From positions 1 to 44,634 of the IMG/VR virus record IMGVR_UViG_3300045742_000078: a stretch of DNA of 44,634 nt; one strand, 5' to 3'. Source of the DNA: a virus. The translations under genes were made by a program, and so were the position numbers. Below, one piece after another: positions 3,356 through 41,813 of this stretch. Position 1 is the first letter of the stretch, and each line of letters opens with the position of its first letter. The notes beneath the pieces were generated by a model that was given only the letters and a program-made list of their open reading frames with translations, searched no databases and was not told the DNA's origin.

Positions 3356-4450
3356 TCAGCGGGTGTGGACGGGCATCAGGAGCCGCATCCGAGAGGCACC
3401 GGCGCAGTAGTCGGCCGCCTCCTCGATCCCCCAAGGCTTGAGGGAGTCCTGGCCGAACATCGAGTCCACGTTGGTGCCCTCGAAGAAGTCAGCGAGGAAC
3501 TGCGGGTTGAATCCGACCTCATGTTCGATGTGGCCAAGGGCCTTGATCTCGATGGTGCTCTCGTCGCTGTTCATGGCGAGCATGACGGTCGTGGAATCCA
3601 CCTGGGTGATCTTCACCGGGGTGTCCCAGGACCACTTGTTGCGGCCGAGGGCCTTGGAGAGCCGGTGGATCTTGAGGGCAGCGTCACGCAGTTCCTCAGT
3701 GATCTTGGCCCCGGAAGGCTTGCCGTCGGGGATCAGGCTCTTGTAGCCAGGAAAGTTCCCATCGCGCAGGCGGCAGACCACCTGGGCGTCACCGTGGTCG
3801 GTCCACATGTGGGTCTGGTCGGTCCACGCGGTGAAGAACTTGGGGTCCCCCAGGCGACACATGGCCTCAGCCGCGGGCCGCGGGATCAGGAACTCGCCGT
3901 CCCAGGCGTGCTCGGGGACCTCGACCATCGACAGGCGGTAGGAGTCCGTCGAGACGTAGGAGCCGCCGTCGTAGAACACGGAGTGCAGCACGGGGCGGTG
4001 CTCGTCCTTCGAGGCGAACAGGAGGGCCTCGTTGAGCGCCCCACCGTGCAGCCGCACCTCGGCGGCCGAGACACCCTTGAGGGGGGCCGAGGGCATCTTC
4101 TCGGTGGTGGAGGGCTTGATGGTGAGGGTCGTCTTGCCGGAGGTGATCCGCAGGACCCCCTCGACCATCTCGGCCTCGATGGCTTCGTCCTTCATGGCGC
4201 CCATGAGGCGCTTGAAGCGGGTGAACGGGATGACGACCGAGCCGGTGGACTCCACCTGCTGGCCCTTCACCTTGATGGATTCCCAGCGGTCGCGCAGGTC
4301 AGTGGTGGTCAACTTGATGACCCCCTTGCCGCGGGCCTCGATCTGGACGCCGCCCGTGTGGGGCATGGCGAAGCGGTAGTTGCCCGACTCTCCGGGCCTG
4401 ATGAGATCGAGGGCCTTCTTGATGGCCGATGCGTCTGCGGTGAACTTCAT
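3356..4450 (-). CDS. dnaN: DNA polymerase III beta subunit-like sliding clamp
   Basis: 364 residues, the usual length of a bacterial beta clamp (three repeated domains). It starts MKFTADASAIKKAL at ATG 4450 with AAGGAAAGC upstream; the start overlaps the helicase stop (ATGA). Recognisable family features are STDSYRLSMVEVP in the middle domain, DGNFPGYKSLIPD (domain 2-3 region) and the C-terminal MRLLMPVHTR, resembling the LMPVR end of DnaN. It is a ring-shaped processivity factor that would tether a polymerase or other clamp-binding proteins to DNA. No DNA polymerase gene is in the window, so it may recruit a host polymerase or one encoded elsewhere. It may also compete for host clamp partners. 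Confidence 0.9.
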   Translation of the reverse strand: MKFTADASAIKKALDLIRPGESGNYRFAMPHTGGVQIEARGKGVIKLTTTDLRDRWESIKVKGQQVESTGSVVIPFTRFKRLMGAMKDEAIEAEMVEGVLRITSGKTTLTIKPSTTEKMPSAPLKGVSAAEVRLHGGALNEALLFASKDEHRPVLHSVFYDGGSYVSTDSYRLSMVEVPEHAWDGEFLIPRPAAEAMCRLGDPKFFTAWTDQTHMWTDHGDAQVVCRLRDGNFPGYKSLIPDGKPSGAKITEELRDAALKIHRLSKALGRNKWSWDTPVKITQVDSTTVMLAMNSDESTIEIKALGHIEHEVGFNPQFLADFFEGTNVDSMFGQDSLKPWGIEEAADYCAGASRMRLLMPVHTR

Positions 4451-7200
4451 CGCTTTCCTTTCTTGGCGGCCCAGGCGGGCCGGTTCCGTGAGCGAGCCTT
4501 CTTGGCGGCGATGTGGGCAGACAGGGCGTCGCTCAGTTCGCCAGCCGTCCACTCGGGATCGATCTGCATGCGCCACTTCTCAGCGGCACCGATCTGCTTC
4601 TCCGTCGGCTTCCGCTTGCGCCATGCAGCGTTGCGGTCAGTGAGGGCGGCGGCCCCGTTCTTGCGAACGAAGTCCTCGCCGACACCCTGAGCCATCTCAA
4701 GGTCCACGTTGTTGATGAGAGTGCGGAAGCCCGACCCGTCGGGACGCTTGGTCGCACCCTGGTCGGCCGGGACGTAGCCGTCCTCCCACTGCAGGTAGGA
4801 GTGGTAGCGGCGGCCGTGCTCGGCCTCGACCTCAGGCTCCACGGCGATCGGTTCGATCACCACGCTGCCCACCTCGCGGTCGCCCAGGCTGATCTGGTAG
4901 CAGGTCTGAGCGTTGGCGTTGTTGTAAGTGATCCACGCCATCGGCGACTCAAGAACCTTGCGGAACAGGTCGGCCTCGGCGGCCTTCAACTTGCCTTCCT
5001 TGATCTCCTCCTCGACCTGCTCGTCCATGGCCTCGGTTACAGGCATCTCACCCTTCTCGAAGGGGTCCTGCTTCTTGATGCCGAACAGGGAGGGGACGGT
5101 CACGAGCGAGTGCTCGGCGGAGGCGCCCACCACATCCATGACGAGGCAGTCGGTCTTGCCGGGGTGGCGGCGAGTGCCGCGCCCGATCATCTGGGTGTAG
5201 AGCGCCCGGCTGCGCGTGGGACGGGCCACCACGATGCAGGAGGTGTCGGGGTCATCGAACCCCTCGGTCAGAACGGCACAGTTGGCGATGACACGCACGT
5301 CGCCCGCGGCGTAGCGGGAGAGGATGTCGCGACGCTCATCGATCGGAGTCTCACCCGACACCATCTCGGCGACGACACCGCGCTCGCGGAGTTCGTCACG
5401 GCACTCTTGGGCGGTGGCGACCGTGGGAGTGAACACCAGGGTCTTGCGCTCGCTGGCGTACTTGAGCCAGGCGTCGGCGATCAAGGAAGGGGCGTCGGCG
5501 TCATGAAGCATCTGGCCCGACTGTCCGGTGTCGTAGTCGCCCCGCACCTTCTTGACCTTGGAGAAGTCGGCGTCGAGGGTGACGCGCATGCCTCGGAGGT
5601 CGGAGAGATAGCCCGAGCGGATGCCCCAGAGCATGTCGTAGGTGAACGTGATCTCATCGAACACGTCGTTGAGGCCCTTGCCGTCGCCGCGGTCTGGCGT
5701 GGCGGTGACGCCGACCAGCAGTGGGCCATCCTCGCTCCCGGCACCGAGGTGCTCGATGATGTTGAGGTAGGAGATGGCCTTGGCGTGGTGCGCCTCATCG
5801 ATCACGACGAGGCCGAACCTGTCGGCTGGCAACTGCTCACGGCGCTTGGCCCGAGCGAGTGTCTGGACTGAGGCCACGACGACCTGATGGTCAACCTCGT
5901 TGCGCTCAGCCTTGACCACGCCGATGTCGGCTCCCGGCCAGACCTGCAGCATCTTGTCGGCGGCCTGAGTGATCAACTCGTCGCGATGGGCGAGGATCAG
6001 GGTCGGCACTCCCATGCGCTGGGCCAGAGACGAGAACATGATGGTGTTGTGAGTGACGATGTAGCCACGCGTGACGTAGAGGCCGTCGGGGTTGGCGACC
6101 TTGATGCACACCTGCTCGACATCGGGGCCGTCTGGCTCCACGGAAGCGACGATCTTGGCCGGGTCGTACTTGGTGGGGGCGACCCAGGTGGCAGTCTTGC
6201 GGGGGAGACGGAAGGGGCACATGTCGGCAGGCAACTTGACGTTGACTCGCCAAGAGGTGCGCCCCTGCTTACGCTCCCCCCGGTAGGTGTAGGTGGGGGT
6301 GCGGCTGGTGATGTTCCGGGCGATACCGCCGAGGCTGCGAGTCAACTCCGCGACCGCCTCCACGAGCGCCTTGCTTGCTGACGCAAACTCCGCCCCGCCG
6401 TTCCTCATGGTGCAGCCATCGGTGTCCATGAGGCCACGCAGGAGTGCGAGGCGCTGGCCGGGCGAACCCAGCAGGTAGATCGCCGGGACGTGCTTCTCCC
6501 ACGACCGGCTTCCCAGGAGGCCCATCGAGTCGAGGGCCGCCACTATCCGCTTGGGAATCTTGCTGTAGGAGGTGTAGGGGCTGGTCTCATGGGGTCGATC
6601 CACGGGCCAACCGAGATGGTCGATGATCTCGGTGTCGGTGCAGATGGTCGGCCCCCACGACGAGATCGACCCATCCCCCAGGATGGCCCCGAGGGTGTAG
6701 GGGTCGATCGGGAGAGGAACATCATCGAGGTGCACCGGCTCCACCACGGGGATGTGCCAGCCAGGCTGCAGTTCGGCGGCCGTGACGGTGCGCCACGGGC
6801 GATCCCGGTACTTGTCGTGCTTCGAGCGCGTGGTCCACAGGTGCTCGGGTCCACAACGGGTCCACGATCCGTCTCGGAAGGTCACCCGCACGACGGGCTG
6901 AATCCCCTGGGGGTGGATCGACTCCACCACCACGGGCTTGCCGTCCACCCCGATGACCTCATCGCCAGGCTGCAGGTCACCCATGGTGGCCCACCCGGCC
7001 GGGGTGAGAACCGGCTCGTCCAGAGGGGCCTGCTTACCCAGGCCGGTGGCAGCGACCCCGAGTTGGCTTCTGACTCCGCGATCCGCTGCGTCAGAGATGT
7101 GCCCGAGGGCTTCTTCTTGGTAGGGGCGCAGAGCGATCTGCGGGGCCTCCGTTGTTGGCGGGGCGACGTGTCGATCGAATCCCATTGAAATCTGGCTCAT
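4447..7200 (-). CDS. SF2 DEAH-type helicase with in-frame intein
   Basis: 917 residues before splicing, about 588 after. ATG 7200 has AAAGGA upstream; the longer N-terminal extension is out of the mRNA context. A Q-motif-like segment (ALRPYQEEAL) is followed by Walker A TGLGK, the intein (residues 57-385), then TIMFSS. Motif II is VVIDEAHH, motif III GVTATP, motif V region VLTEGFDDP and motif VI QMIGRGTRR. These define a RecG/UvrB/Rad25-like superfamily 2 helicase with two RecA lobes. A Lys/Arg-rich tail (AKKARSRNRPAWAAKKGKR) probably binds DNA. It is translationally coupled to dnaN, suggesting a replication or recombination role. Confidence 0.92.
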   Translation of the reverse strand: MSQISMGFDRHVAPPTTEAPQIALRPYQEEALGHISDAADRGVRSQLGVAATGLGKQAPLDEPVLTPAGWATMGDLQPGDEVIGVDGKPVVVESIHPQGIQPVVRVTFRDGSWTRCGPEHLWTTRSKHDKYRDRPWRTVTAAELQPGWHIPVVEPVHLDDVPLPIDPYTLGAILGDGSISSWGPTICTDTEIIDHLGWPVDRPHETSPYTSYSKIPKRIVAALDSMGLLGSRSWEKHVPAIYLLGSPGQRLALLRGLMDTDGCTMRNGGAEFASASKALVEAVAELTRSLGGIARNITSRTPTYTYRGERKQGRTSWRVNVKLPADMCPFRLPRKTATWVAPTKYDPAKIVASVEPDGPDVEQVCIKVANPDGLYVTRGYIVTHNTIMFSSLAQRMGVPTLILAHRDELITQAADKMLQVWPGADIGVVKAERNEVDHQVVVASVQTLARAKRREQLPADRFGLVVIDEAHHAKAISYLNIIEHLGAGSEDGPLLVGVTATPDRGDGKGLNDVFDEITFTYDMLWGIRSGYLSDLRGMRVTLDADFSKVKKVRGDYDTGQSGQMLHDADAPSLIADAWLKYASERKTLVFTPTVATAQECRDELRERGVVAEMVSGETPIDERRDILSRYAAGDVRVIANCAVLTEGFDDPDTSCIVVARPTRSRALYTQMIGRGTRRHPGKTDCLVMDVVGASAEHSLVTVPSLFGIKKQDPFEKGEMPVTEAMDEQVEEEIKEGKLKAAEADLFRKVLESPMAWITYNNANAQTCYQISLGDREVGSVVIEPIAVEPEVEAEHGRRYHSYLQWEDGYVPADQGATKRPDGSGFRTLINNVDLEMAQGVGEDFVRKNGAAALTDRNAAWRKRKPTEKQIGAAEKWRMQIDPEWTAGELSDALSAHIAAKKARSRNRPAWAAKKGKR
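6046..7032 (-). mobile_element. Class 3-type intein with LAGLIDADG endonuclease in helicase
   Basis: 329 residues inserted between Lys and Thr of GLGK/T. Residue 1 is Gln, not a nucleophile. The end is VTHN followed by Thr+1. Block B is PEHLW (His64, Trp66), block F has Cys309 (EQVCIKV), and Thr327 precedes His328-Asn329: again the W-C-T set. LAGLIDADG-type motifs are TLGAILGDGSI and LLRGLMDTDG. The N-terminal blocks align with the terL intein without gaps (His64/Trp66 fall at identical positions), so the two inteins look related, although they sit in different host proteins at analogous P-loop sites. Confidence 0.88.
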
Positions 7201-7229
7201 GTGTTTGGTCCTTTCGTCGTGGTAGACCG

Positions 7230-7238
7230 ATAATAGCA
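7230..7238 (-). promoter_or_regulatory. Extended -10 candidate upstream of the helicase
   Basis: TGCTATTAT on the minus strand (7238-7230), an extended -10 (TGn-TATTAT). A leader of about 22 nt would carry the AAAGGA ribosome site before ATG 7200. No -35 hexamer was convincing. Confidence 0.4.
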
Positions 7239-7260
7239 CATCCCCCTGACGGGAGTCGAG

Positions 7261-7784: not shown

Positions 7785-8558
7785 CTAAAGCCAGCGTTCG
7801 GCCCCCTGGGCCACGGCAGGTTCCACGGCCTCTGAATCGAGGCCCAACTTCACGGCGGCCGAGACACCGGCGAGCGCCAGGTCCCCAGAGTGCTCCTTCA
7901 AGAAGCCCCGGACGAACCGCTCGTAGGAGGGCCGCGGCACCTTGGCCCGCAACTCGCCGAAGCGGAAGATCACGAACTCCACAGGCTCGGAGCCGATGGT
8001 GTCGGTGATGGGGGCCGGGCTTGATGATTCGATGAGGTCGTCCGACTCGTCCTCGATGTCATCGCCCCCCGGCATGATCTTGTCGAGCACGGAGGCAGCG
8101 AGGCCCACGTCCTCGACCCCCTCATCGGCGGGCAACTCGAAAGCGGTGGAGGCCGCCAGGAGATCATCCACCTCGTCGGTGGTGTAGCCGGTCCCTTCGA
8201 GTAGGGCGTCGCTCTCGTCCAAGATGTCCGAGAGGAGGTCAGCCAGCAGGCGCTCGTCGTAGGTGCCGCGGTCGGCGATCTTGTTGGCCGCCAGCAGGAT
8301 GCGCTTGGCTTGGATGTCGTCCACATCGACGTAGACCACATCGATCTCGTCCCAGCCGAGTTCGCATGCGGCGCGGTAGGTGTGGTTGCCCGAGACGATG
8401 TACCCGGTGGACTGCTGGACCACGATCGGGGCGAACTGCTGGTTCTCCGCCAGCGACTCCATGATGGCCTCGATGTCGCCAACCCGAGGGTTGCCGGGGT
8501 ACTGCTCGATGAGATCGACGTTTACCCTGACGATCTTGTCGAGGAGAGATTCAGTCAT
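7785..8558 (-). CDS. ParB-like nuclease/CTPase-fold protein (first copy)
   Basis: 257 residues. The ParB_N-type domain occupies residues 1-120: NPRVGDIEAIMESL, then IVVQQSTGYIVSGNHTYRAACELGW, where GNHTYRA replaces the G-E-R/H-R motif of ParB. A helical extension and an acidic stretch (GGDDIEDESDDLIESSS) follow, then a C-terminal conserved block. ATG 8558 has GGAAGGAAC upstream and overlaps the methyltransferase end by 8 bp. In phages, short ParB-domain proteins often accompany DNA methyltransferases and are not partition proteins. Here two such genes flank one methyltransferase. No HTH or centromere-like repeat was seen, so a plasmid-partition role is not supported. Confidence 0.85.
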   Translation of the reverse strand: MTESLLDKIVRVNVDLIEQYPGNPRVGDIEAIMESLAENQQFAPIVVQQSTGYIVSGNHTYRAACELGWDEIDVVYVDVDDIQAKRILLAANKIADRGTYDERLLADLLSDILDESDALLEGTGYTTDEVDDLLAASTAFELPADEGVEDVGLAASVLDKIMPGGDDIEDESDDLIESSSPAPITDTIGSEPVEFVIFRFGELRAKVPRPSYERFVRGFLKEHSGDLALAGVSAAVKLGLDSEAVEPAVAQGAERWL

Positions 8559-11238
8559 CGGATGTTCCTTCCGAGAAGTCCATCGCCATGACGGGGCCGC
8601 ACGCCCTGGTTGCCTTGCGCGGGTCGCCCTTCACGAAGGTGAGGAGGTTCTGGTGGGTCTTGCCCAACTTACGCGTGGCGTCGAATTGACGACCGGCTCG
8701 CAGGGGGAGGCTGGCGGCATGAGTGACGAGCACGGCCTCGTTGTAGAGGCGTAGCCCGGCCGCCTCCATGATCTTCACCGTGTCGGCAGGGAAGCCGTAG
8801 TAGAAGCCCTTCTTGTCGCGGAAGTCCCCGACCACGACGACGGCGAAACGATCGTCGGCGAGACGCTTGGCGCTGTTCGCCATGATCTCACCGAACGCCT
8901 TGATGAAGTCCGGGTACTCCATCGTGGAGAGGTCGCGAGGGTCGTCGCTGTAGACCTCCAAGTCGCCGTAGGGCGGGCAGTTGTGGGACACCACGCCTTC
9001 GGCGAGGTAGGAGTGGTCCTCGTCTACTTCGATGTTGAACACCGGGAGTGCATCCACGGCTTCCACGTCGATAGACCTGATCTTGTAGTGGGCGAAGCCC
9101 CTATCGATCCATGGGCCGCGACCGGGGCGACGGTGAGGTGGGGTATTGATCTCCTCGTCCAAGAGTGAGGCCAGAGCGTCGGCGTGGATGCCACGCACCT
9201 CAAGGGTCCAGAAGGGGGCTGGATCGGTTGCGTAGTTCGACTTACGCTGCACGCGGCACCGAACGCGAGCGATCACGCCGAGACGCAACAGGGCACGCCG
9301 CATGTCCTCAGCCAACTGACGAGAGATGGTGCCGAACCCCATGCGGCCAGACCTCTCGATCCAGCCGTCCCCGCGCCAGGCGCCGATGACAACTTCGGCG
9401 AGAAGTTCGTCCGAGCAGCCCCACACCCATCCGGGGAAAGACTTGTTGGCGGCCCCGCGCCCACACGACTCGGAGAAGAAGTTCACCCCGACCACACCGT
9501 TGCACCCAACGAAGGACTGCTTGCCTTCCCCCCAGGTGACAAGACGGGCGCCAAGTTCGGCGCCGAAAGTTGCCTTGTACCGCTGGATCACATCATCGTG
9601 ATACTCGACCTCATCGGCGTGGAAAGCGAACTGAGTCGCCCCCTTGCTACACGAGCCTTCGGCGAGGTAGTACCCAACGAGACGACAGAGATCACTGGTG
9701 GCGGAAGCCGTCCTGGCTCCTTGTGCCCGACGGCCACGATTAGACGAGCGCTCCGGCTCCTCGTACTCCCAGATGGTCTCACCATCCAGAACCTTGTCCG
9801 GCTCTACGGGGACCGGCTCAACCAACGCGTCGCCCACCCGGACCTCATCCGCCCTACGCCACTCCATCACTCCGTCCCGCCACACGAGAAGCGGGTGCTC
9901 GGCCGTGGCCATCAGCGGCATCGGGGCGTAGTCGCGGTGGAAGGTGAACAGGTTGCCCGTGTAGTTGAACTGGAACGTCTCGGTCACAACTCGGGGCTTG
10001 CCGGAGTGGGCAATCACTGAGTCGCCTTCTCGCACTTCTTCGATGGGGGTCAATCCGTTCACCCCAGAGATGATAGTCCCCGTAGGGTGGCAGGTGAAGA
10101 TCATGTCAGCCGTCTCGTCCGTGAGTTCCATCACATCCATGCCGTCACCCTCGATCCAGACGGGATCAGGGGCGATCACCGGCACAGCCGAAGGGCGGAT
10201 GGCGCTGACCCACAGAAGGTCGCCTTCACGGAGGTACGGTAGGCACTTGGCCTCGTAGTAGGCGTCGAGCAGGACGCCATCAAGGTCGGTGCGGGTCGCC
10301 GCGACGTGGTAGTCCGACTCCTCATCGATCAACTCCACCATGTCGCGCCAACCCTCGGGCGCCCAACGGTCGAGTCGCTCCTCAGGGACGCTGCCCACGC
10401 AGACGGCAGTGACGGGGATGTCGATGCCCTGCTCGACCAGGCCGTGAAGGATGCCCGCCAGGGTCATGCCGGAGCCACAGGCGTTGACGATGCGCTTGGC
10501 GCCGTCGGGGATGTTGACCACCTGGGGCTTGGTGTAGTCCACCGCCTCCTGGGACTCCATGCCGTAGGGGACCTCGATCCACCCTCGCTCCTGGGCGTCC
10601 TCTCGGGCACGAGCGATGATGACGGAGTTGTAGCCGTACTCGTGCTGAGTGATGGCCGCGCCAGCGGCGCGAGCGGCGATCAACTCAGAGGTGAGCGGAC
10701 CGGAAGGGACGTGGACCCGGCACTTGACCCCCATCTCGTAGGCGATCTGCGCGACGAAGTTGACCTGCGGTGACATACGACTACCTGCGGTGACAACCCC
10801 GACGCCCTTCTCCTTCGCCTCGGCGATGAAGTGCATGCAGGTGCGAACCTTGGCGCCGCGCACCCCGGCGTAGACGTACTTGTCCTCACGCTTGAGCCAG
10901 ATGCCGCGGTCCTCCAAGAACTCGACCGGCGTCACCTTGGGCATGTCGTTGGCGGGGGTGTCGGGAACGATCCCGAGGCCATCGGTCAACAACTCCTTGG
11001 ACTGCTGGTAGTTGGCCTCGATCTGATTGGCCCGCACGTCGATACCGATGTACCGACGACCCAACTTGGCCGCCACGATGCCGCGCACCGAGCCTCCGGC
11101 GAAGGGGTCGAGCACCAGGCCCTTGGGTGGGCAGAACCAGCGGTAGGCGATCTCGCACAGCACCGGGTCAAAGATCGAAGTAGCGCCGTCGCCGTAGAGG
11201 AGTTCGGAGTCGTTGGACTCGACCTCGGTGTCACTCAT
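8551..11238 (-). CDS. DNA methyltransferase with inserted PLP-enzyme domain and intein
   Basis: 895 residues before splicing. Start MSDTEVESND at ATG 11238 with GAGGAAGC upstream. Residues 41-72 carry methyltransferase motif I (LVLDPFAGGSVRG) and an acidic ribose-binding segment (YIGIDVR). Residues about 105-350 resemble a fold-type II PLP enzyme (ACC deaminase/cysteine synthase superfamily): WLKRED, GAKVRTC with candidate Schiff-base Lys130, TAGSRMSPQVN, and a phosphate-binding loop GSGMT at 255-259. Motif IV (T/CPPYGDLE) is split by an intein at 383-753. The C-terminal part (VVVVGDFRD, THQNLLTFVKG) completes the methyltransferase. Target base (N6-A or N4-C) cannot be read from sequence. The PLP domain's substrate is unknown. 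Flanking ParB genes suggest one DNA-modification cassette. Confidence 0.88.
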   Translation of the reverse strand: MSDTEVESNDSELLYGDGATSIFDPVLCEIAYRWFCPPKGLVLDPFAGGSVRGIVAAKLGRRYIGIDVRANQIEANYQQSKELLTDGLGIVPDTPANDMPKVTPVEFLEDRGIWLKREDKYVYAGVRGAKVRTCMHFIAEAKEKGVGVVTAGSRMSPQVNFVAQIAYEMGVKCRVHVPSGPLTSELIAARAAGAAITQHEYGYNSVIIARAREDAQERGWIEVPYGMESQEAVDYTKPQVVNIPDGAKRIVNACGSGMTLAGILHGLVEQGIDIPVTAVCVGSVPEERLDRWAPEGWRDMVELIDEESDYHVAATRTDLDGVLLDAYYEAKCLPYLREGDLLWVSAIRPSAVPVIAPDPVWIEGDGMDVMELTDETADMIFTCHPTGTIISGVNGLTPIEEVREGDSVIAHSGKPRVVTETFQFNYTGNLFTFHRDYAPMPLMATAEHPLLVWRDGVMEWRRADEVRVGDALVEPVPVEPDKVLDGETIWEYEEPERSSNRGRRAQGARTASATSDLCRLVGYYLAEGSCSKGATQFAFHADEVEYHDDVIQRYKATFGAELGARLVTWGEGKQSFVGCNGVVGVNFFSESCGRGAANKSFPGWVWGCSDELLAEVVIGAWRGDGWIERSGRMGFGTISRQLAEDMRRALLRLGVIARVRCRVQRKSNYATDPAPFWTLEVRGIHADALASLLDEEINTPPHRRPGRGPWIDRGFAHYKIRSIDVEAVDALPVFNIEVDEDHSYLAEGVVSHNCPPYGDLEVYSDDPRDLSTMEYPDFIKAFGEIMANSAKRLADDRFAVVVVGDFRDKKGFYYGFPADTVKIMEAAGLRLYNEAVLVTHAASLPLRAGRQFDATRKLGKTHQNLLTFVKGDPRKATRACGPVMAMDFSEGTSDD
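8980..10092 (-). mobile_element. Class 1 intein with LAGLIDADG endonuclease in methyltransferase
   Basis: 371 residues, starting CHPTGTIISG (Cys1) and ending GVVSHN before Cys+1 of CPPY. Block B is ATAEHPLL with the usual T-x-x-H. Block F is FNIEVDEDHSYLAEG. This is the classical class 1 pattern, unlike the other two inteins here. LAGLIDADG-type motifs are LVGYYLAEGS and VIGAWRGDGWI; the first has Glu in place of the usual Asp, so one half-site may be altered. Splicing rebuilds the catalytic motif IV. Confidence 0.9.
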
Positions 11239-11998
11239 TGTCGGCTCGCTTCCTCTCCTCGGCGGCTCCCTCAGCGACGAAAGGCCGATCGGGATTGTGA
11301 TGGCGTTGCGGTGCGGCCAGGTACCACGTCCGGGGCTTGTCGTCGCGGCCCAACTCACCTTCGAGTCCGAGGCCGATCCATGTGTTCTTGCGGTCCTGCC
11401 ACCAGCCCTCGCGAGCGTTGAGCACGGTGAAGGGCGACACCATGAAGCGATCCATCAGGGACAGGGTGGCCCGCTTGGGGCCATCTTCCTTGCGCTTGAG
11501 GTCCGCCAGGGGATTCTCTCCTGGCGGCTCGTCATCCTCAGCGCCAGCCTCCTCCAACTCCTCAGGGGCGGCCGTCTCACCCAGGAGGGCTTCGAGGTCG
11601 TCCATCGTGTAGGAGGCATCCTCAAGAAGTGCCTCATCGGCTTCGAGCACATCAGCGATCATGGCCGCCAGGGCGTCGTCGTCATAGGTGCCCAACTCGG
11701 CGGTGCGGTTGTCCGCCAGAGCGAAGGCTTTGGCCGTGGCCTCATCGTCGTCAGTCCATAGGACCGCGATCTGGGTCCATCCCAACCGGCGTGCCGCTTG
11801 CAGGGTGTGATTGCCTGCGATGACCTGCTTGGTGGATCGCTGGACGATAATTGGCTTGCGCTGCTTGAATCGCTTGAGTGACTTCGCTACGGATTCGATG
11901 TCGCCGACGCGCGGGTTGCCCTCAAGCAACTGCGGCTCGGCGATTGGGACGCACAGCGGCCACAGCGACTCTGCGATGTAGTCGGGACCCTCAGGCAT
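11231..11998 (-). CDS. ParB-like nuclease/CTPase-fold protein (second copy)
   Basis: 255 residues. The N-terminal ParB-like domain has NPRVGDIESVAKSL and IAGNHTLQAARRLGW. The middle parallels ParB copy one (DNRTAELGTYDDDALAAMIADVL versus DRGTYDERLLADLL), showing common descent. The C-terminal third (RDKNTW-like region and PQRHHNPDRPF) differs from copy one. ATG 11998 has GGGAGGGG upstream. It overlaps the HNH gene end by 8 bp and the methyltransferase start by 8 bp, so the three are co-transcribed. Its first 45 codons are duplicated, in diverged form, at 12562-12698. Confidence 0.85.
   Translation of the reverse strand: MPEGPDYIAESLWPLCVPIAEPQLLEGNPRVGDIESVAKSLKRFKQRKPIIVQRSTKQVIAGNHTLQAARRLGWTQIAVLWTDDDEATAKAFALADNRTAELGTYDDDALAAMIADVLEADEALLEDASYTMDDLEALLGETAAPEELEEAGAEDDEPPGENPLADLKRKEDGPKRATLSLMDRFMVSPFTVLNAREGWWQDRKNTWIGLGLEGELGRDDKPRTWYLAAPQRHHNPDRPFVAEGAAEERKRADNE
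11853..11977. repeat. Direct repeat A, copy 1 (5' part of ParB gene)
   Basis: Pairs without gaps with 12562-12686 (125 bp each, about three quarters identical by eye). Both encode the ParB N-terminal segment ending QRKP; similarity stops abruptly there. Confidence 0.8.
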
Positions 11999-12539
11999 CG
12001 CCCCTCCCGTCGTGGCGGCTCAGATTGCAGTGAAGATGGGTGAGCCTTACGTTCCCTGGCCCGTCTGGGCCTCCCTTGGAAACGGGGATGGTGTGGTCGA
12101 TTGAGCGAGCCATAGGGTCAGGCCATTCCAGCGTCGGGTCTACTCCCTTGTGGCACAACTGACAGACCCAGCCGTCACGCTCGAAGATGTCCAGGCGGTC
12201 GTAAGGCTCGAAGCCGTTGCCAGCCCGCATGGCGCGACGCCTTTGGTTCCACGCTCGGTACTGCTCGGGGTTCTCTTGGCGGTGCTTCGCCTTGACCTTC
12301 AACCGTTCATCACGAGTGGCGTGGTAGTAGGCCAGGCAGCGCTCTCGCTCAGCAGTGGGGTCGGCGGCGTACTTCTCCCGCTTCTCCTTGAGCACACGGT
12401 CCCGGTCGCGGTAGTAGGCGTCCAACTTCTGACGCTTGCGGCACTTCCGGCAGTGGTTGCGGTGGCCCGACTTCATCTTCGGCTCCGCCTCAAAGGCCTC
12501 TACCGGGAGGTCGTGCTCGCACGTCTTGCAGATCGGCAT
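11991..12539 (-). CDS. HNH homing endonuclease next to a ParB gene remnant
   Basis: 182 residues from ATG 12539 (MPICKTCEHD). An N-terminal zinc module (CKTC.. CRKC), a long basic helical linker (YRDRDRVLKEKREK and following) and a C-terminal HNH motif: CQLCHKG, SIDHTIPVSKGG, VRLTHLHCN. TATCGT lies 6 nt before the ATG, so a leaderless transcript is possible. The reading frame also continues upstream without a stop to GTG 12698, through a ParB-like N-terminus, so a 235-residue fusion could be made. Free-standing HNH enzymes of this type are mobile and cut near their insertion site; the neighbouring ParB gene is the likely target. Confidence 0.88.
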   Translation of the reverse strand: MPICKTCEHDLPVEAFEAEPKMKSGHRNHCRKCRKRQKLDAYYRDRDRVLKEKREKYAADPTAERERCLAYYHATRDERLKVKAKHRQENPEQYRAWNQRRRAMRAGNGFEPYDRLDIFERDGWVCQLCHKGVDPTLEWPDPMARSIDHTIPVSKGGPDGPGNVRLTHLHCNLSRHDGRGDA

Positions 12540-12698
12540 ACCACTACGATAGCACCGTGGCGGCTTGCGCTGGCCAAAGCGATTCAGCGACTTGGCAACC
12601 GACTCGATGTCACCAACGCGAGGGTTGCCTTCAAGCAACTGTGGCTCGGCGATCGGGACAGCGAGAGGAAGGAGGGACTCCGCGATCTTGTGGCTCAC
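12540..12698 (-). pseudogene. Truncated ParB N-terminal fragment upstream of HNH
   Basis: GTG 12698 (GTGA overlap with the upstream stop) opens about 45 residues that match the start of the next ParB gene: IAESLLPLAVPIAEPQLLEG versus IAESLWPLCVPIAEPQLLEG, then NPRVGDIESVAKSLNRFGQRKP. After QRKP come seven unrelated residues and the HNH ATG. It is the remnant of a third ParB copy whose 3' part was lost or replaced by the HNH gene. It may still be translated as an N-terminal extension of the nuclease. Confidence 0.75.
12562..12686. repeat. Direct repeat A, copy 2
   Basis: Partner of 11853-11977. It lies in the truncated ParB fragment upstream of the HNH gene, so the HNH gene sits between two copies. 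Confidence 0.8.
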
Positions 12699-13213
12699 GG
12701 CTTGTTCCACTTCTTGAACTCGCCGGGGGGCTTGCCTGCGGAATCCTTGGCGATCCGGGCCACTAGGTCCACTTTCGGCTCTGGGATGACCGTTTCGATG
12801 ACCGGCTCAGGATCAAGGTCGATCTCGGAGGGATCGGCGATGCCCCCGGTGGCGAACTCTTGCTCCGGCTTCGGCGGGTTGAACGGCAGCGACGGCACAC
12901 GCTCCATCGGCCCCGTCACGATGTCCTCAGGCGGCTCAGGAGCCTCCTGGGGCGGCTCCGGGGCCTCTGGGGCGTTGATGGCCGCCAGGAAGGACTCCAC
13001 GACCTCCTGGGACTCCTCAATCGCCCTCTTGGGGGTCGGGGTTGAGATGTCCTCGTCCTCGGGCGTCAAGGGCGCCGGAGGTTCGCCGAGGGGCCGGTCC
13101 CAGCCTTCATCGAGAATCTCGTGGTGGCGCTCCACGGCGCGGAAGATGACGGCGAACAGAACGATGCCCGCTAGGACTACGAAGATCAGGAGAGCGATCA
13201 AGGCGACGGCCAT
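12695..13213 (-). CDS. Single-span membrane protein with acidic Pro-rich tail
   Basis: 172 residues from ATG 13213. Residues 2-25 are one hydrophobic helix (VALIALLIFVVLAGIVLFAVI), followed by a charged region rich in Pro, Glu and Asp with repeats such as EAPEPPQEAPEPPED, and ending EFKKWNKP. A TACGAT box lies 7 nt before ATG 13213; the alternative ATG 13222 overlaps that box, so 13213 is preferred. No domain recognised. Topology suggests an N-terminal anchor with an extended cytoplasmic or external tail. Confidence 0.72.
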   Translation of the reverse strand: MAVALIALLIFVVLAGIVLFAVIFRAVERHHEILDEGWDRPLGEPPAPLTPEDEDISTPTPKRAIEESQEVVESFLAAINAPEAPEPPQEAPEPPEDIVTGPMERVPSLPFNPPKPEQEFATGGIADPSEIDLDPEPVIETVIPEPKVDLVARIAKDSAGKPPGEFKKWNKP

Positions 13214-15456: not shown

Positions 15457-15674
15457 CAGGATTCCAGTTCGTCGTGGAGGGACAACTGACCCTCGCAGTG
15501 AGAGGTGATCTCCCCGGAGTCCTCGGGGGTCACGGGGATTCCCTTCAAGATCGAGACTGCCGTCCCCGCCGCCAGGGAAATGGCCCCGTAGGAGAAGTGG
15601 GAGGGGTGGTCCCTGATCGCGGTGAGAGTGGTTGTGATGGCCCGGATGTCAGGCTCCTCGTCGCCGACGTGCAT
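15456..15674 (-). CDS. Small hypothetical protein
   Basis: 72 residues from ATG 15674 (MHVGDEEPDI) with a strong AGGAGG upstream, which decides the start. It overlaps the MazG-like gene end by 26 bp and the next gene by one base. Helical with a short hydrophobic patch (YGAISLAAGTAVSILKGI), too weak to call a membrane span. Not recognised. Confidence 0.68.
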   Translation of the reverse strand: MHVGDEEPDIRAITTTLTAIRDHPSHFSYGAISLAAGTAVSILKGIPVTPEDSGEITSHCEGQLSLHDELES

Positions 15675-16155
15675 GGTTATCCTCCTTGGGGTCGATTCCC
15701 AACACCTTGGCGATGTCGGGAGGGAAGTAGTTGGGTCCCTTGAGCGTCTTTCCATCTTCGCGCCTGAGGGGTTGCCCGTCCTCACCCAACTTGGACATGT
15801 TGGAGCGGTGCACCTCAGCCACCACGGCATCGAGGTCGATGCCATGCACGATGGCCGCGCCGTAGACGACATAGGCGAGGTCCGCCAAGGCGTCGGCGAT
15901 CTCCACGAGGTCGGGGGTGTAGGTGGCCTCCGTCGCGTCGGTGAGGTGACCGTGACCCACCTCGGTCGTGATCGTCACGTCCACCCTGGTGGTGTCATTC
16001 CCCGTGATGCCCTGCGCGAACTCCTCGAACTCCTCGCGAATCAACTCGATGCGGAGCCGGGCAGTCTCGTCGTCCACCGGGGTGAGGCCCTCGGGGACCG
16101 GATGCCGAAACACCTCGTGGAACTCCCGCACCATCTCCTGTGCGCTCTTAGTCAT
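15649..16155 (-). CDS. MazG-like nucleotide pyrophosphohydrolase
   Basis: 168 residues from ATG 16155 (MTKSAQEMVR), overlapping the upstream nuclease stop by ATGA. All-alpha NTP-PPase signature: RIELIREEFEEF (E-x2-E motif) and LVEIADALADLAYVVYGAA (E-x-x-D motif), with GIDLDAVVAEVHRSNMSKLG and a Lys-Gly-Pro-Asn-Tyr-x-Pro-Pro loop as in phosphoribosyl-ATP pyrophosphohydrolase-like MazG proteins. It would hydrolyse NTPs or dNTPs to monophosphates. A phage may use it to cleanse modified nucleotides or lower (p)ppGpp; the sequence does not show which. The catalytic acidic residues are present. Confidence 0.8.
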   Translation of the reverse strand: MTKSAQEMVREFHEVFRHPVPEGLTPVDDETARLRIELIREEFEEFAQGITGNDTTRVDVTITTEVGHGHLTDATEATYTPDLVEIADALADLAYVVYGAAIVHGIDLDAVVAEVHRSNMSKLGEDGQPLRREDGKTLKGPNYFPPDIAKVLGIDPKEDNHARRRRGA

Positions 16156-16748
16156 GATGCGGCCCTTCGGATGTAGTCCGCTGCCGCGATCAACCGATCG
16201 GGGCAGTCCTTGAACTGCCCCAGCGCACGGTTGCAGTCGGAGCACAGGAGGCCCCGGACCTCTCCGGTGTCATGGCAGTGGTCAACGTGAAGTCGGGGAC
16301 GGCGCGGGTCGCCGGAGGTGGGACTCGCGCAGATGGCACACCCACCCCCCTGCTTCGCTAGCATCTCGTCGTAGTCGTCGGCGGTGATGCCGTAGGTCCG
16401 ACGAAGGTGGCGATCGAAGTTGGCGCGCTGGTACTCGGGACGTTGCTGACGCTCCCGCTGGTACTCGGTCAGCCGGTCAGCGTTCTCAGCGCGGTACCGC
16501 TTGCCATACTCCTTGAGCCGGTCAGCGTTCTCCCTATAGTAAGCGGCGTGGCGCTCTCGCCGGGCTTCCTTGTTCTTCTCGGCGTAGGCGCGGTCCTTGG
16601 CCCTCTTGCACTCGACGCACTGCGTGTAACGCTTGCCCCCGTACCAGAACATCTCGATGGGGAGGTGCTTCTCGCACGCCCTGCAGGTGAGTTCGGTGCA
16701 AGAGCACTCGGCCACCGAGGGGCACCCACACCTGGGCTTACCGGCCAT
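16152..16748 (-). CDS. Recombination endonuclease VII-type HNH protein
   Basis: 198 residues from ATG 16748. N-terminal zinc module (CRACEKHL.. QCVECKRAK), a basic helical linker with two copies of ENADRLxEY, then YGITADDYDEMLAKQGGGC and the endonuclease VII core: CAICASP, LHVDHCHDTGEVRGLLCSDC and NRALGQFKD. TACCAT lies 7 nt before the ATG, suggesting a leaderless start; an upstream TTG at 16766 is possible. Known family (T4 gp49-type fold) resolves branched DNA, but these phage versions mostly behave as mobile nucleases. Overlaps the MazG gene by ATGA. Confidence 0.83.
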   Translation of the reverse strand: MAGKPRCGCPSVAECSCTELTCRACEKHLPIEMFWYGGKRYTQCVECKRAKDRAYAEKNKEARRERHAAYYRENADRLKEYGKRYRAENADRLTEYQRERQQRPEYQRANFDRHLRRTYGITADDYDEMLAKQGGGCAICASPTSGDPRRPRLHVDHCHDTGEVRGLLCSDCNRALGQFKDCPDRLIAAADYIRRAAS

Positions 16749-38876: not shown

Positions 38877-39269
38877 CTAGGGGGTGCCCAAGTAGGAGAT
38901 CGCTCGTTCCAGTGAGGGAATTGAGTCCTTGAAGAACCCAAGTCCAAGATTGCAATTCCGGCAGAGCAGTCCCCGACCTCGGCCGGTGACGTGACAGTGA
39001 TCAACATTCGGAGGGTCATCCCCGAAGGGGGAATCGCAGATGGCGCACTTTCCATCTTGGGCGACCAGGGTGGCCTGGATGTCCAGGCCGTGGCGACGCC
39101 TACTCTTGTAGGCCCGCTTGCGTTGGCGTAGGACCTCGGCACATCGCCAAACACCCCCTCGGTCCCCGCCGTAACTCCTGAACCGAACTTCAACCTCACC
39201 ACAAGACGAACAGACCCCCGTCCTGCTGTCCTCGTCTACCCCTGAGATCGAATGCTCCCACTTGCCCAT
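38877..39269 (-). CDS. Endonuclease VII-type HNH protein
   Basis: 130 residues from ATG 39269 (MGKWEHSISG). An N-terminal zinc pair (CSSCGE), then LVAQDGKCAICDSPFGDDPP, NVDHCHVTGRGRGLLCRNCN, LGLGFFKDSIPSL. These are the endonuclease VII hallmarks, similar to the protein at 16152-16748 but shorter. TATCGT lies 5 nt before ATG. It sits between two strong hairpins/elements, suggesting an independent unit. Confidence 0.82.
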   Translation of the reverse strand: MGKWEHSISGVDEDSRTGVCSSCGEVEVRFRSYGGDRGGVWRCAEVLRQRKRAYKSRRRHGLDIQATLVAQDGKCAICDSPFGDDPPNVDHCHVTGRGRGLLCRNCNLGLGFFKDSIPSLERAISYLGTP

Positions 39270-39274
39270 CCCAC

Positions 39275-39280
39275 ACGATA
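39275..39280 (-). promoter_or_regulatory. Leaderless -10 candidate, endonuclease VII-type gene
   Basis: TATCGT followed by GTGGG and ATG 39269. Same box as before the HNH gene at 12539. Confidence 0.38.
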
Positions 39281-39287
39281 ACGCGAA

Positions 39288-39320
39288 GGACCCCCCGCAA
39301 CGTAGCGAAGCGGGGGGTCC
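39288..39320. terminator. Strong hairpin after tail tube gene B
   Basis: GGACCCCCCGC (39288-39298) pairs with GCGGGGGGTCC (39310-39320), an 11-bp perfect stem and 11-base loop, 29 bp past the tail tube stop. It probably limits read-through from the abundant tail tube mRNA into the nuclease genes. No T-run. Confidence 0.78.
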
Positions 39321-39349
39321 AACAGGATCGGTCTTGCGTCAGGGTTGGC

Positions 39350-40177
39350 TCAGGAGGAGGCCGCCGTGACCGGGACGTAGCCGCAGTCATCGATCGGGTC
39401 CGGCAGAGCACCGACGCACTTCCAAGCCAGGGGACCGCCCGCCTGGATCGCAGCCTGATCGGCCAGGGTCCAAGGGTCGGCGATGACGCCCGGCGGCAGA
39501 ACCGGGGGCGGCGGGCCGATGGGGACGCCCGTGGGGTCGCCAGCCGACGGGGTGTCGGGAGCGGCCGGGGGCGACGGGAGGACGTAGGACGGGAAGTCCG
39601 GTCCGGGGTAGGACGGGAACCACAGCGGGTTGTTCTCCGCGTAGCCCATGAGGGTGACCTCAAGAGGGCCGGTGGTGAAGTTGAGTCCACCACTGATCTC
39701 CCAATTGATCACCCGAGGCAGAACCCACTGGATGTAGAGGTTCTGGGTGGTTCCGTCCACGGAGCAGACACCCTTGTCGGCGTTCTTGGACCAGAACTCC
39801 ACGGCCTTGGAAGGCTCGCACGCCGCGTCCTTGGACTCCCGCATCACAGCGCCGGTCATGTTGCCGGAGCCGTCATCGAGCAGGGTCGCACCCGTGAGCA
39901 TCTCGATCACGGGGAGAGGGACGCCGCACAACTTGAGTTCGACCTCGAACCCCTTGAGGCGGTCGCAGTCCTTGTCGCGGATGCAGATGTCGCCGCAACC
40001 GTTCTTCGTGGTGATGTCCTCACCAGCCTCGACATCCGGTGACAGGTTGAGTTCCATGAACCCAGCGGTCTGGATGCGGCTGTTGGGGACCAACGGATCG
40101 AGTGCGATGTCGCACTCGCTCTGGCGCGTGATACGCATGGCACACGCCTTGATGGACTTGGGGCAGCAGATTGCCAT
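39350..40177 (-). CDS. Major tail (tube) protein, copy B
   Basis: 275 residues from ATG 40177 with AGGAGG upstream. Tail-tube family features: RIQTAGFMELNLSPDVEAGE, GCGDICIRDKDCDRLKGFEV, ELKLCGVPLPVIEMLTGATL, YAENNPLWFPSYPGPDFPSY. A strongly conserved N-terminus (MAICCPKSIKACAMRITR) is shared with copy A at 43006-43893 (about 60% identical by eye over the first 200 residues). Tube protein would polymerise around the tape measure protein. The C-terminus ends CGYVPVTAASS without the extension of copy A. Strong downstream terminator suggests high expression. Confidence 0.82.
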   Translation of the reverse strand: MAICCPKSIKACAMRITRQSECDIALDPLVPNSRIQTAGFMELNLSPDVEAGEDITTKNGCGDICIRDKDCDRLKGFEVELKLCGVPLPVIEMLTGATLLDDGSGNMTGAVMRESKDAACEPSKAVEFWSKNADKGVCSVDGTTQNLYIQWVLPRVINWEISGGLNFTTGPLEVTLMGYAENNPLWFPSYPGPDFPSYVLPSPPAAPDTPSAGDPTGVPIGPPPPVLPPGVIADPWTLADQAAIQAGGPLAWKCVGALPDPIDDCGYVPVTAASS

Positions 40178-41054: not shown

Positions 41055-41319
41055 CGGTGTTGTCCTCTTGGGTGTCGAGGTGGCGGTAGGCCAGGAGTTC
41101 TCCGTCCTGACTTTCCCGACGCACCTCCACGATAGTCGATTCTGGGTTCGGACTAAGGTTTACCGAGTAGCGGGCGTTCCCGTCGAGGTCGATCCAGCAC
41201 TCAGGAACCACACCCGAGACGTGGAACTTCTCGGGATGGCCGGTCCGATTGGCCAGCAGGACGGCAATGGTCCCACCCTCGTTGGCCCTCAGGGCGGCCT
41301 CGACCTCGCTGCGCTCCAT
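41044..41319 (-). CDS. Small hypothetical protein
   Basis: 91 residues from ATG 41319. Strands such as GGTIAVLLANRTGHPEKFHV and VPECWIDLDGNARYSV suggest a small beta domain. TGATG overlap with the upstream sulfotransferase-like gene and 11-bp overlap downstream. Not recognised. Confidence 0.63.
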   Translation of the reverse strand: MERSEVEAALRANEGGTIAVLLANRTGHPEKFHVSGVVPECWIDLDGNARYSVNLSPNPESTIVEVRRESQDGELLAYRHLDTQEDNTDGS

Positions 41320-41813
41320 CAGTCTCCTAGGTACTTCGAGTTCTCGTCGGTTACCTCGATCGTAGATTCCCAGCGAGGGATACCCAACGCGTCAGCAACC
41401 CGGTCCAACTCTGCATCGCGGTCGGCCACGAGTGCCTCGTAGGAGAGGGCAGGTCGCGTGGGGTACTTGTCGGCGACCGTCGCTTCGGTGGTATCCACGA
41501 ACGTCTCAGCCTGTTCCTGAGTCACGATGGCGGAGAACATAGGCATGTCATCACGGGCAAGGACCGAAGCGATGCGAGCGTCGCGGTCGCGATGGATACG
41601 GACGACCTTAGTGAGAGGTGCGTCCGTCTTGCCATGTGAACGATCATGGATTGCGTCAAGGCCGGACTCCGCCATGAGGCGGCGGGCCAGCCGGGTCCCA
41701 CTTGAGGGCGGTCCGACCACAATGAGGTCAGCGCCTTCCATGCGCTCGGTCAGCCGCCTACGCCGCGGCGGAGTCGGCAACTTCTTGGACGGAGGAATGA
41801 CTACGGGTTCCAT
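41319..41813 (-). CDS. Sulfotransferase-like P-loop protein
   Basis: 164 residues from ATG 41813. The N-terminus is Pro/Lys/Arg-rich. LIVVGPPSSGTRLARRLM at residues 30-47 resembles the PAPS 5'-phosphosulfate loop; HRDRDARIASVLARD at about 74-88 resembles the 3'-phosphate-binding motif (R-D-P-R-D); and SYEALVADRDAELDRVADAL near 124-143 matches the Y-E-D-L-V helix of the family. Much shorter than host sulfotransferases, so it may be a minimal domain or a related P-loop kinase. If active it might sulfate a virion protein or cell-surface glycan. It lies between virion genes. Confidence 0.66.
   Translation of the reverse strand: MEPVVIPPSKKLPTPPRRRRLTERMEGADLIVVGPPSSGTRLARRLMAESGLDAIHDRSHGKTDAPLTKVVRIHRDRDARIASVLARDDMPMFSAIVTQEQAETFVDTTEATVADKYPTRPALSYEALVADRDAELDRVADALGIPRWESTIEVTDENSKYLGD

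Follow-up and report, generated by a model that had tools for sequence, protein, structure and literature searches.

The window analysed here is the whole 44,634-nucleotide stretch of the IMG/VR virus record IMGVR_UViG_3300045742_000078, and its minus strand carries a gene for a DNA methyltransferase (MTase) that contains an embedded pyridoxal 5'-phosphate (PLP)-type enzyme domain, denoted MTase[PLP] (Table 1). The original prediction, made from the sequence alone, had placed the motifs of a fold-type II PLP enzyme between MTase motifs I and IV of this open reading frame (ORF). Every motif lies at the residues given for it, the WLKRED motif of the PLP domain being found at residue 114 of the precursor. 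Both parts score above their Pfam gathering cut-offs: PF00291 (PALP) matches residues 105–283 (E = 5.7e-13, 49.3 bits versus 35), and PF01555 (N6_N4_Mtase) matches residues 35–75 (E = 1.3e-8, 35.5 bits versus 26.7). The Pfam matches, the alignment of relatives and a structural model place the complete PLP domain after MTase motifs I/II and ahead of motifs III/IV. Judged by motif I, motif IV and the Pfam score, the surrounding part is an N6/N4-type DNA methyltransferase for which methyl transfer is predicted. Its closest PDB entries are 2zie and 8s9n, and its motif order, X-I-II-III-IV, is permuted relative to 2zie.

Table 1. Features of the MTase[PLP] locus in the window, and the Cys-rich domain found in related loci (L numbers)
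Feature	Position	Strand	Basis or remark
Whole MTase[PLP] ORF, with intein	8551..11238	minus	895-aa precursor starting MSDTEV; 524 aa once spliced
MTase N-terminal part, residues 1-95 (FDPVLCE, motif I, motif II region)	10954..11238	minus	Pfam N6_N4_Mtase 35-75 and alignment
Motif I DPFAGGSVRG, residues 44-53, predicted AdoMet-binding	11080..11109	minus	alignment
Inserted fold-type II PLP domain, residues ~96-352	10183..10953	minus	PALP; model and structure match 96-351
Lys130 in GAKVR (from 128), predicted PLP Schiff-base lysine	10849..10851	minus	conservation; aligns with GNKxR of DCyD/ACCD
Predicted substrate-carboxylate loop TAGSRMSPQVN, residues 150-160	10759..10791	minus	alignments
GSGMT, residues 255-259, predicted PLP phosphate loop	10462..10476	minus	alignments
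YEAKC, residues 328-332; its Glu takes the PLP N1 position, like that of YEGK in ACC deaminase	10243..10257	minus	alignments
MTase motif III region, residues 353-382, WIEGDG...DMIFT	10093..10182	minus	alignment
Intein with LAGLIDADG domain, residues 383-753, at IFT/CPPY	8980..10092	minus	Pfam/TIGR matches; empty site in relatives
MTase C-terminal part from motif IV CPPY, residues 754-895	8554..8979	minus	phrog_12517/phrog_498; alignment
ParB-like gene, split-off N-terminal half of ParB-MTase	11231..11998	minus	phrog_723/phrog_498; fused in relatives
Second ParB-like gene, directly downstream of MTase[PLP]	7785..8558	minus	PF02195 above cut-off; phrog_723
Cys-rich domain between PLP domain and motif III, or separate gene	L021, L041, L050 (within fused ORF); L042, L048; L057 6976-7560; L066 2600-3106; L082 5806-6222		

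The gene is further interrupted by an intein, which shows a Cys1 residue, a LAGLIDADG domain, a terminal HN followed by Cys, and an empty site in relatives. Its end, ...VVSHN, directly adjoins CPPY, which makes the motif IV Cys the +1 residue of the intein. The window ORF matches intein_Cterm (TIGR01443; 32.3 versus a cut-off of 15.6) and LAGLIDADG_3 (35.5 versus 22.5), with PF14890 slightly under its cut-off (34.3 versus 35.8), and the element is missing from the relatives L001–L005. CPPY falls at residue 383 of the spliced protein and at residue 754 of the precursor because everything between these positions is intein.

The fused architecture is far beyond chance, because the intein-free relatives L001–L004, which are 82–92% identical to the window protein, keep the same domains, 32 fused MTase–PLP proteins from diverse phages align from end to end, and dN/dS, calculated for the window against L001, L003 and L004, is ~0.1 for the PLP and MTase portions alike (range in the MTase parts, 0.02–0.14). 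By this measure, purifying selection acts alike on the PLP domain and the MTase. To define the family, viral contigs were searched by alignment, the PLP domain of the window (subfamily 1) serving as query; this retrieved 132 relatives, of which 80 were kept. An MTase-based search revealed a divergent PLP subfamily 2, which adjoins the MTase in 37 of 80 loci, and a search with subfamily-2 PLP retrieved 480 relatives (80 kept). Overall, several hundred viral members of the PLP family are on contigs from cyano-, proteo-, staphylo- and many metagenomic phages.

The same insertion, looked for in other phage methyltransferases, proved widespread, and the PLP domain takes three topologies relative to the MTase: inserted, C-terminally fused, or encoded next door. 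Most subfamily-1 domains enter the MTase at one point, after the helix following motif II. The inserted architecture of the window recurs in 60 subfamily-1 loci; Pam4, a cultured phage, has it as a single annotated coding sequence. Fusion at the MTase C-terminus is seen in L010, L011, L042, L048 and L070; the other subfamily-1 PLP proteins are stand-alone, mostly near a PLP-free MTase of the same family. Subfamily-2 genes lie beside the MTase in 79 of the 80 kept loci, mostly on the same strand with a gap of 21–102 bases, and the sole locus without the MTase is 109 bases from its contig end. In Microcystis phage Mae-JY30, ParB, MTase and PLP are three adjacent genes that overlap by 8 and 4 bases. 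In the Erythrobacter phages R6L and ZS04, a subfamily-2 PLP domain is inserted at the same MTase site, and because this domain is nested among stand-alone subfamily-2 enzymes in the PLP tree, the insertion arose, or the domain was swapped, at least twice. The window is a metagenomic viral contig, which would fit an assembly chimera or a chance ORF fusion; the 60 loci, the Pam4 coding sequence and the presence of the other PLP subfamily in R6L and ZS04 refute it, and it can practically be dismissed. Apart from the MTase and ParB, no neighbour gene recurs at these loci, where the remaining neighbours are ordinary phage genes. The PLP family is nearly absent from cellular genomes, with one match in 84,980 species (a single peptide pattern) and one further Pseudomonadota genome of 397 that has the PLP gene with the MTase adjacent. 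A search of plasmids for subfamily-2 PLP gave no match.

Structural modelling places the inserted domain in a known enzyme fold. An AlphaFold2 model of the intein-free L001 (90% identical to the window protein), calculated from a 30-row alignment, reached a pLDDT of 86.6 (mostly >88 in the PLP part) and a pTM of 0.73. Its top Foldseek matches are structures of D-cysteine desulfhydrase (DCyD) and 1-aminocyclopropane-1-carboxylate (ACC) deaminase (ACCD), and a model restricted to the MTase retrieved generic class-I MTases only. With VIA-align, model residues 96–351 superpose on the ACC-deaminase homologue 1j0a with Z 26.1 (2.7 Å over 255 residues, 26% identity) and on the D-cysteine desulfhydrase 4d92 with Z 25.6. 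The PLP fold on which the original prediction hinged for residues 105–350 is therefore present in the model.

The predicted catalytic residues are conserved across the family. In 97 non-redundant PLP members of both subfamilies, the Schiff-base Lys is found in 96, the remaining one having a gap there, and the first Gly of the phosphate loop is found in all. The Tyr, the acid and the Lys of a C-terminal Y-[ED]-x-K motif are likewise each present in 97 of 97, the acid being Glu in subfamily 1 and Asp in subfamily 2 (with one Glu); the same position reads YEGK in ACC deaminase and YTGK in D-cysteine desulfhydrase. In ACC deaminase, the Glu of YEGK sits at the pyridine nitrogen of PLP, and an acid aligned with this N1 position suggests that quinonoid-type chemistry is favoured. 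By Lys, glycine-rich phosphate loop and fold alike, the domain belongs to the fold-type II PLP enzymes. The MTase–PLP protein has one predicted active site of the S-adenosylmethionine (AdoMet) type and one of the PLP type, both fully conserved. These observations bear on the idea that the PLP domain has lost catalysis and serves the MTase only for target recognition or as a scaffold. Alpha-class MTases do have their target-recognition domain inserted at a similar position, separating motif III from motif IV; however, hardly any variation is seen in the catalytic Lys, the phosphate loop and Y-[ED]-x-K, stand-alone copies included, and purifying selection on the domain equals that on the MTase, which makes this idea very improbable.

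The closest link to DNA modification comes from phage M6, whose DNA carries 5-(2-aminoethyl)deoxyuridine (PMC6449724). M6 (DQ163916) has one PALP gene, at 39165–40115 and ~2 kb from the HMUDK gene, and its product matches both PLP subfamily profiles (E = 4e-12 and 1e-13). The SN1 counterpart of this gene, SN1_023, is listed among thymidine-modification genes (PMC9476957). In phage Lydia, the M6-type PLP gene PaL_00087 follows an amino acid:DNA transferase gene and precedes a radical SAM gene; YuA gp11 is of the same type. The M6 pathway uses HMUDK, kinase, radical SAM and aGPT-Pplase proteins, with the PLP enzyme presumably placed to act on thymine. A tree was calculated from subfamilies 1 and 2, the M6-type enzymes, DCyD, ACCD and 13 other cellular PALPs (a small cellular sample of 18 rows). 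Both phage subfamilies group with the M6-type enzymes on one side of a branch supported by bootstrap/SH-aLRT values of 100/99, as against the cellular PALPs including DCyD and ACCD, and the M6 type has subfamily 2 as its nearest neighbour (98/91). The M6-type enzymes have the Lys and Y-[ED]-x-K in common with both phage subfamilies and the C-terminal pattern PFP...YDxKAW...FWN with subfamily 2. They also resemble them in being encoded beside an enzyme acting on DNA, which in Lydia is the amino acid:DNA transferase. An MTase of the present family was not found in the 34 kb of M6 scanned. DNA modification beyond methylation is thus partly supported, and independently so, by the M6 clade and by the regular pairing with the MTase.

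In a rival explanation, the MTase merely methylates DNA and the PLP domain is a tethered metabolic enzyme, such as a deaminase or lyase that supplies ammonia, sulfide or a keto acid or clears a by-product. D-cysteine desulfhydrase and ACC deaminase, as the nearest solved structures, fit this explanation, as do the many MTases of the same family that lack PLP and have identical catalytic motifs. A metabolic enzyme would, however, hardly be expected to pair near-exclusively with one DNA MTase family or to enter the same internal MTase site twice, and the PLP domain groups with the M6 DNA-modification enzyme, not with DCyD/ACCD. We therefore regard it as rather improbable.

We lean instead towards a two-cofactor (AdoMet and PLP) DNA-modifying enzyme, which would generate a hypermodified base and thereby guard the phage DNA against host nucleases. 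The best reading is that this enzyme works without an M6-type thymine pathway. The ParB-like and MTase parts would find the target base in DNA and flip it out, and the MTase part, of the CPPY family, would act on the base with AdoMet, presumably at an exocyclic amino group (adenine or cytosine). Via a Lys130–PLP aldimine, the embedded PLP domain would then form or remodel an amino-acid-type substituent on the base, a step analogous to the presumed role of the homologous M6 PLP enzyme on thymine, and the resulting base would protect the phage DNA. A so far undescribed DNA base is the probable product of the pair, because hundreds of unrelated phages keep both enzymes and the PLP domain belongs to the family of the M6 enzyme. 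The original prediction had proposed a single polypeptide that binds AdoMet and PLP and modifies bases beyond methylation; the two-site anatomy, the M6 clade and the MTase pairing lend it partial support, with cofactor binding, catalysis and the modified base standing as predictions.

Several observations weigh against the two-cofactor enzyme. The dependence between the partners is one-sided, in that PLP goes with the MTase and the MTase is often alone: the PLP gene is absent in 13 of 17 MTase contigs scanned in full, and several cultured phages carry the same MTase without it. Five subfamily-1 contigs (three clusters) have no close MTase. Motif comparison found no active-site residue that distinguishes PLP-bearing from PLP-free MTases, and since PLP-free MTases are also common, the MTase may carry out plain methylation; with identical catalytic motifs in the two groups, methylation could likewise precede or accompany the PLP chemistry. 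The low PLP identity between the subfamilies does not fix the substrate. Finally, genes for thymidylate-synthase-fold, HMUDK, ADDT and TET/JBP proteins were not found in the window, Pam4, R6L, ZS04 or Mae-JY30, where the HMUDK search detected M6 as positive control, those for ADDT and TET/JBP were run without one, and the window may be incomplete; therefore, the chemistry cannot copy that of M6.

A specific version of the two-cofactor enzyme takes AdoMet as the amino-acid donor: the MTase fold would attach a 3-amino-3-carboxypropyl group to the base, for the PLP domain to decarboxylate or rearrange. AdoMet would be the only amino-acid donor that the two domains need, in keeping with ADDT and HMUDK not being found in the window and the four cultured carriers (with the M6 control for HMUDK). 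Class-I MTase-fold aminocarboxypropyl transferases exist, for example TYW2, and the acid of Y-[ED]-x-K, common with ACC deaminase, would favour quinonoid chemistry. By comparison, CPPY and motif I are identical in PLP-free MTases, neither residue nor structure points to an altered AdoMet orientation, and nothing singles this version out; we consider it improbable. Tentatively, and with considerable doubt, AdoMet and PLP might be used in turn, the MTase adding an aminocarboxypropyl or methyl handle that the PLP domain converts to an amine-bearing base, by a route independent of 5-hydroxymethyl pyrimidines in several hundred known phages.

Eight subfamily-1 loci combine the MTase–PLP pair with a Cys-rich domain (CGGRCC...GC...CHLYPL), which resembles DUF3109 at an E value of 9e-5, below the cut-off, and which may be a further catalytic part or third component. 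The long insertions before CPPY in L021, L041 and L050 were considered as inteins and rejected, as they hold this Cys-rich domain instead. In Staphylococcus phage Alsa_1 (L007 2957–5717), a divergent stand-alone subfamily-1 PLP gene has a related MTase ~1 kb upstream and is directly preceded by a gene for a 202-aa protein with a CMSCFKC motif. In R6L and ZS04, a PAPS-reductase gene (L177 2374–3417; L178 1–917) lies ~2 kb upstream of the MTase–PLP gene, the ZS04 copy being marked misc_feature.

Two ParB genes had been described as flanking MTase[PLP]. Both are present, yet they are not equivalent, the upstream one being the split-off N-terminal part of a ParB–MTase and overlapping the MTase start with its last 8 bases. 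The window ParB–MTase is regarded as split because ParB domain, linker and MTase[PLP] form one polypeptide in L005, in phage Pam4 (Pam4_70) and in L097, a gammaproteobacterial metagenome-assembled genome. The adjoining HNH endonuclease gene (11991–12710) looks as if inserted into a ParB copy, duplicating the ParB start: its first ~50 residues are nearly identical to the start of the upstream ParB gene. Elsewhere in the window, a DNA helicase gene (4447–7239) contains an intein at Walker A (GLGK/T), found at the same site in L004 and absent in L001–L003; a small sulfotransferase-like protein (41319–41813; PF13469 above cut-off) is encoded amid the structural genes, and a MazG-like nucleotide pyrophosphohydrolase (15649–16245) in the early region. 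A nucleotide search of the window region against phage records gave no match, and PADLOC returned type II/orphan MTase and homing-endonuclease models only, plus a weak mad2 match for two relatives.

Known phage DNA hypermodifications mostly need long pathways that start at 5-hydroxymethyl-pyrimidines. In the present cassette, the PLP enzyme class of one such pathway is linked straight to a DNA methyltransferase of ordinary appearance, and no pathway genes were detected around it. If active, it would let phages reach undescribed DNA bases in few steps and counter restriction in a new way, a prediction testable in the cultured phages R6L, ZS04, Mae-JY30 and Pam4. Genes annotated 'DNA methyltransferase' or 'threonine dehydratase' in many phage genomes may belong to a hypermodification system.

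Our comparison with known systems reveals both shared and distinct features. In sequence and fold, the best solved-structure match to the PLP domain is the DCyD/ACC deaminase family (4d8t, 1j0a, 1f2d), with the Glu at PLP N1 as a particular likeness to ACC deaminase. The domain differs from this family in lying far under the NCBIfam cut-offs, outside the equivalog/subfamily models TIGR01275, TIGR01274 and PRK03910 (26.1 versus 289.4 bits for TIGR01275; second score 18.4 versus 392 bits). It also has the Asn of the QSN[HQ] loop replaced (SPQ in subfamily 1, GGAQ in subfamily 2), forms a separate clade and is shorter, at ~255 residues. The PLP-free phrog_498 ParB–MTase and phrog_12517 relatives, such as Listeria B054 gp77 and Enterococcus phiFL3A gp36, have the same MTase with DPFAGGSVRG and CPPY and a ParB-like N-terminal domain, whereas they lack the PLP domain between motifs II and III. 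In PHROGs, subfamily 2 is phrog_7093, 'threonine dehydratase', which is a homology label, and subfamily 1 is phrog_3650 with no function given; the MTase link is mentioned for neither. Bce_0392 of Bacillus cereus, cited in PMC5512222, is reported to join an adenine methylase to a ParB domain that nicks DNA, with no PLP domain reported for this ParB–methylase. The R6L genome paper calls ORF 1 a DNA modification methylase and gives it one domain, CcrM-like, missing the PLP domain. In the literature searched, with Iyer 2013 and Lee 2018 outside it, we found no description of the MTase–PLP pairing, or of PLP together with a phage DNA MTase and ParB. PLP enzymes are known from phage DNA hypermodification; what is new here is that they are fused to, and regularly paired with, a DNA methyltransferase of the AdoMet type.

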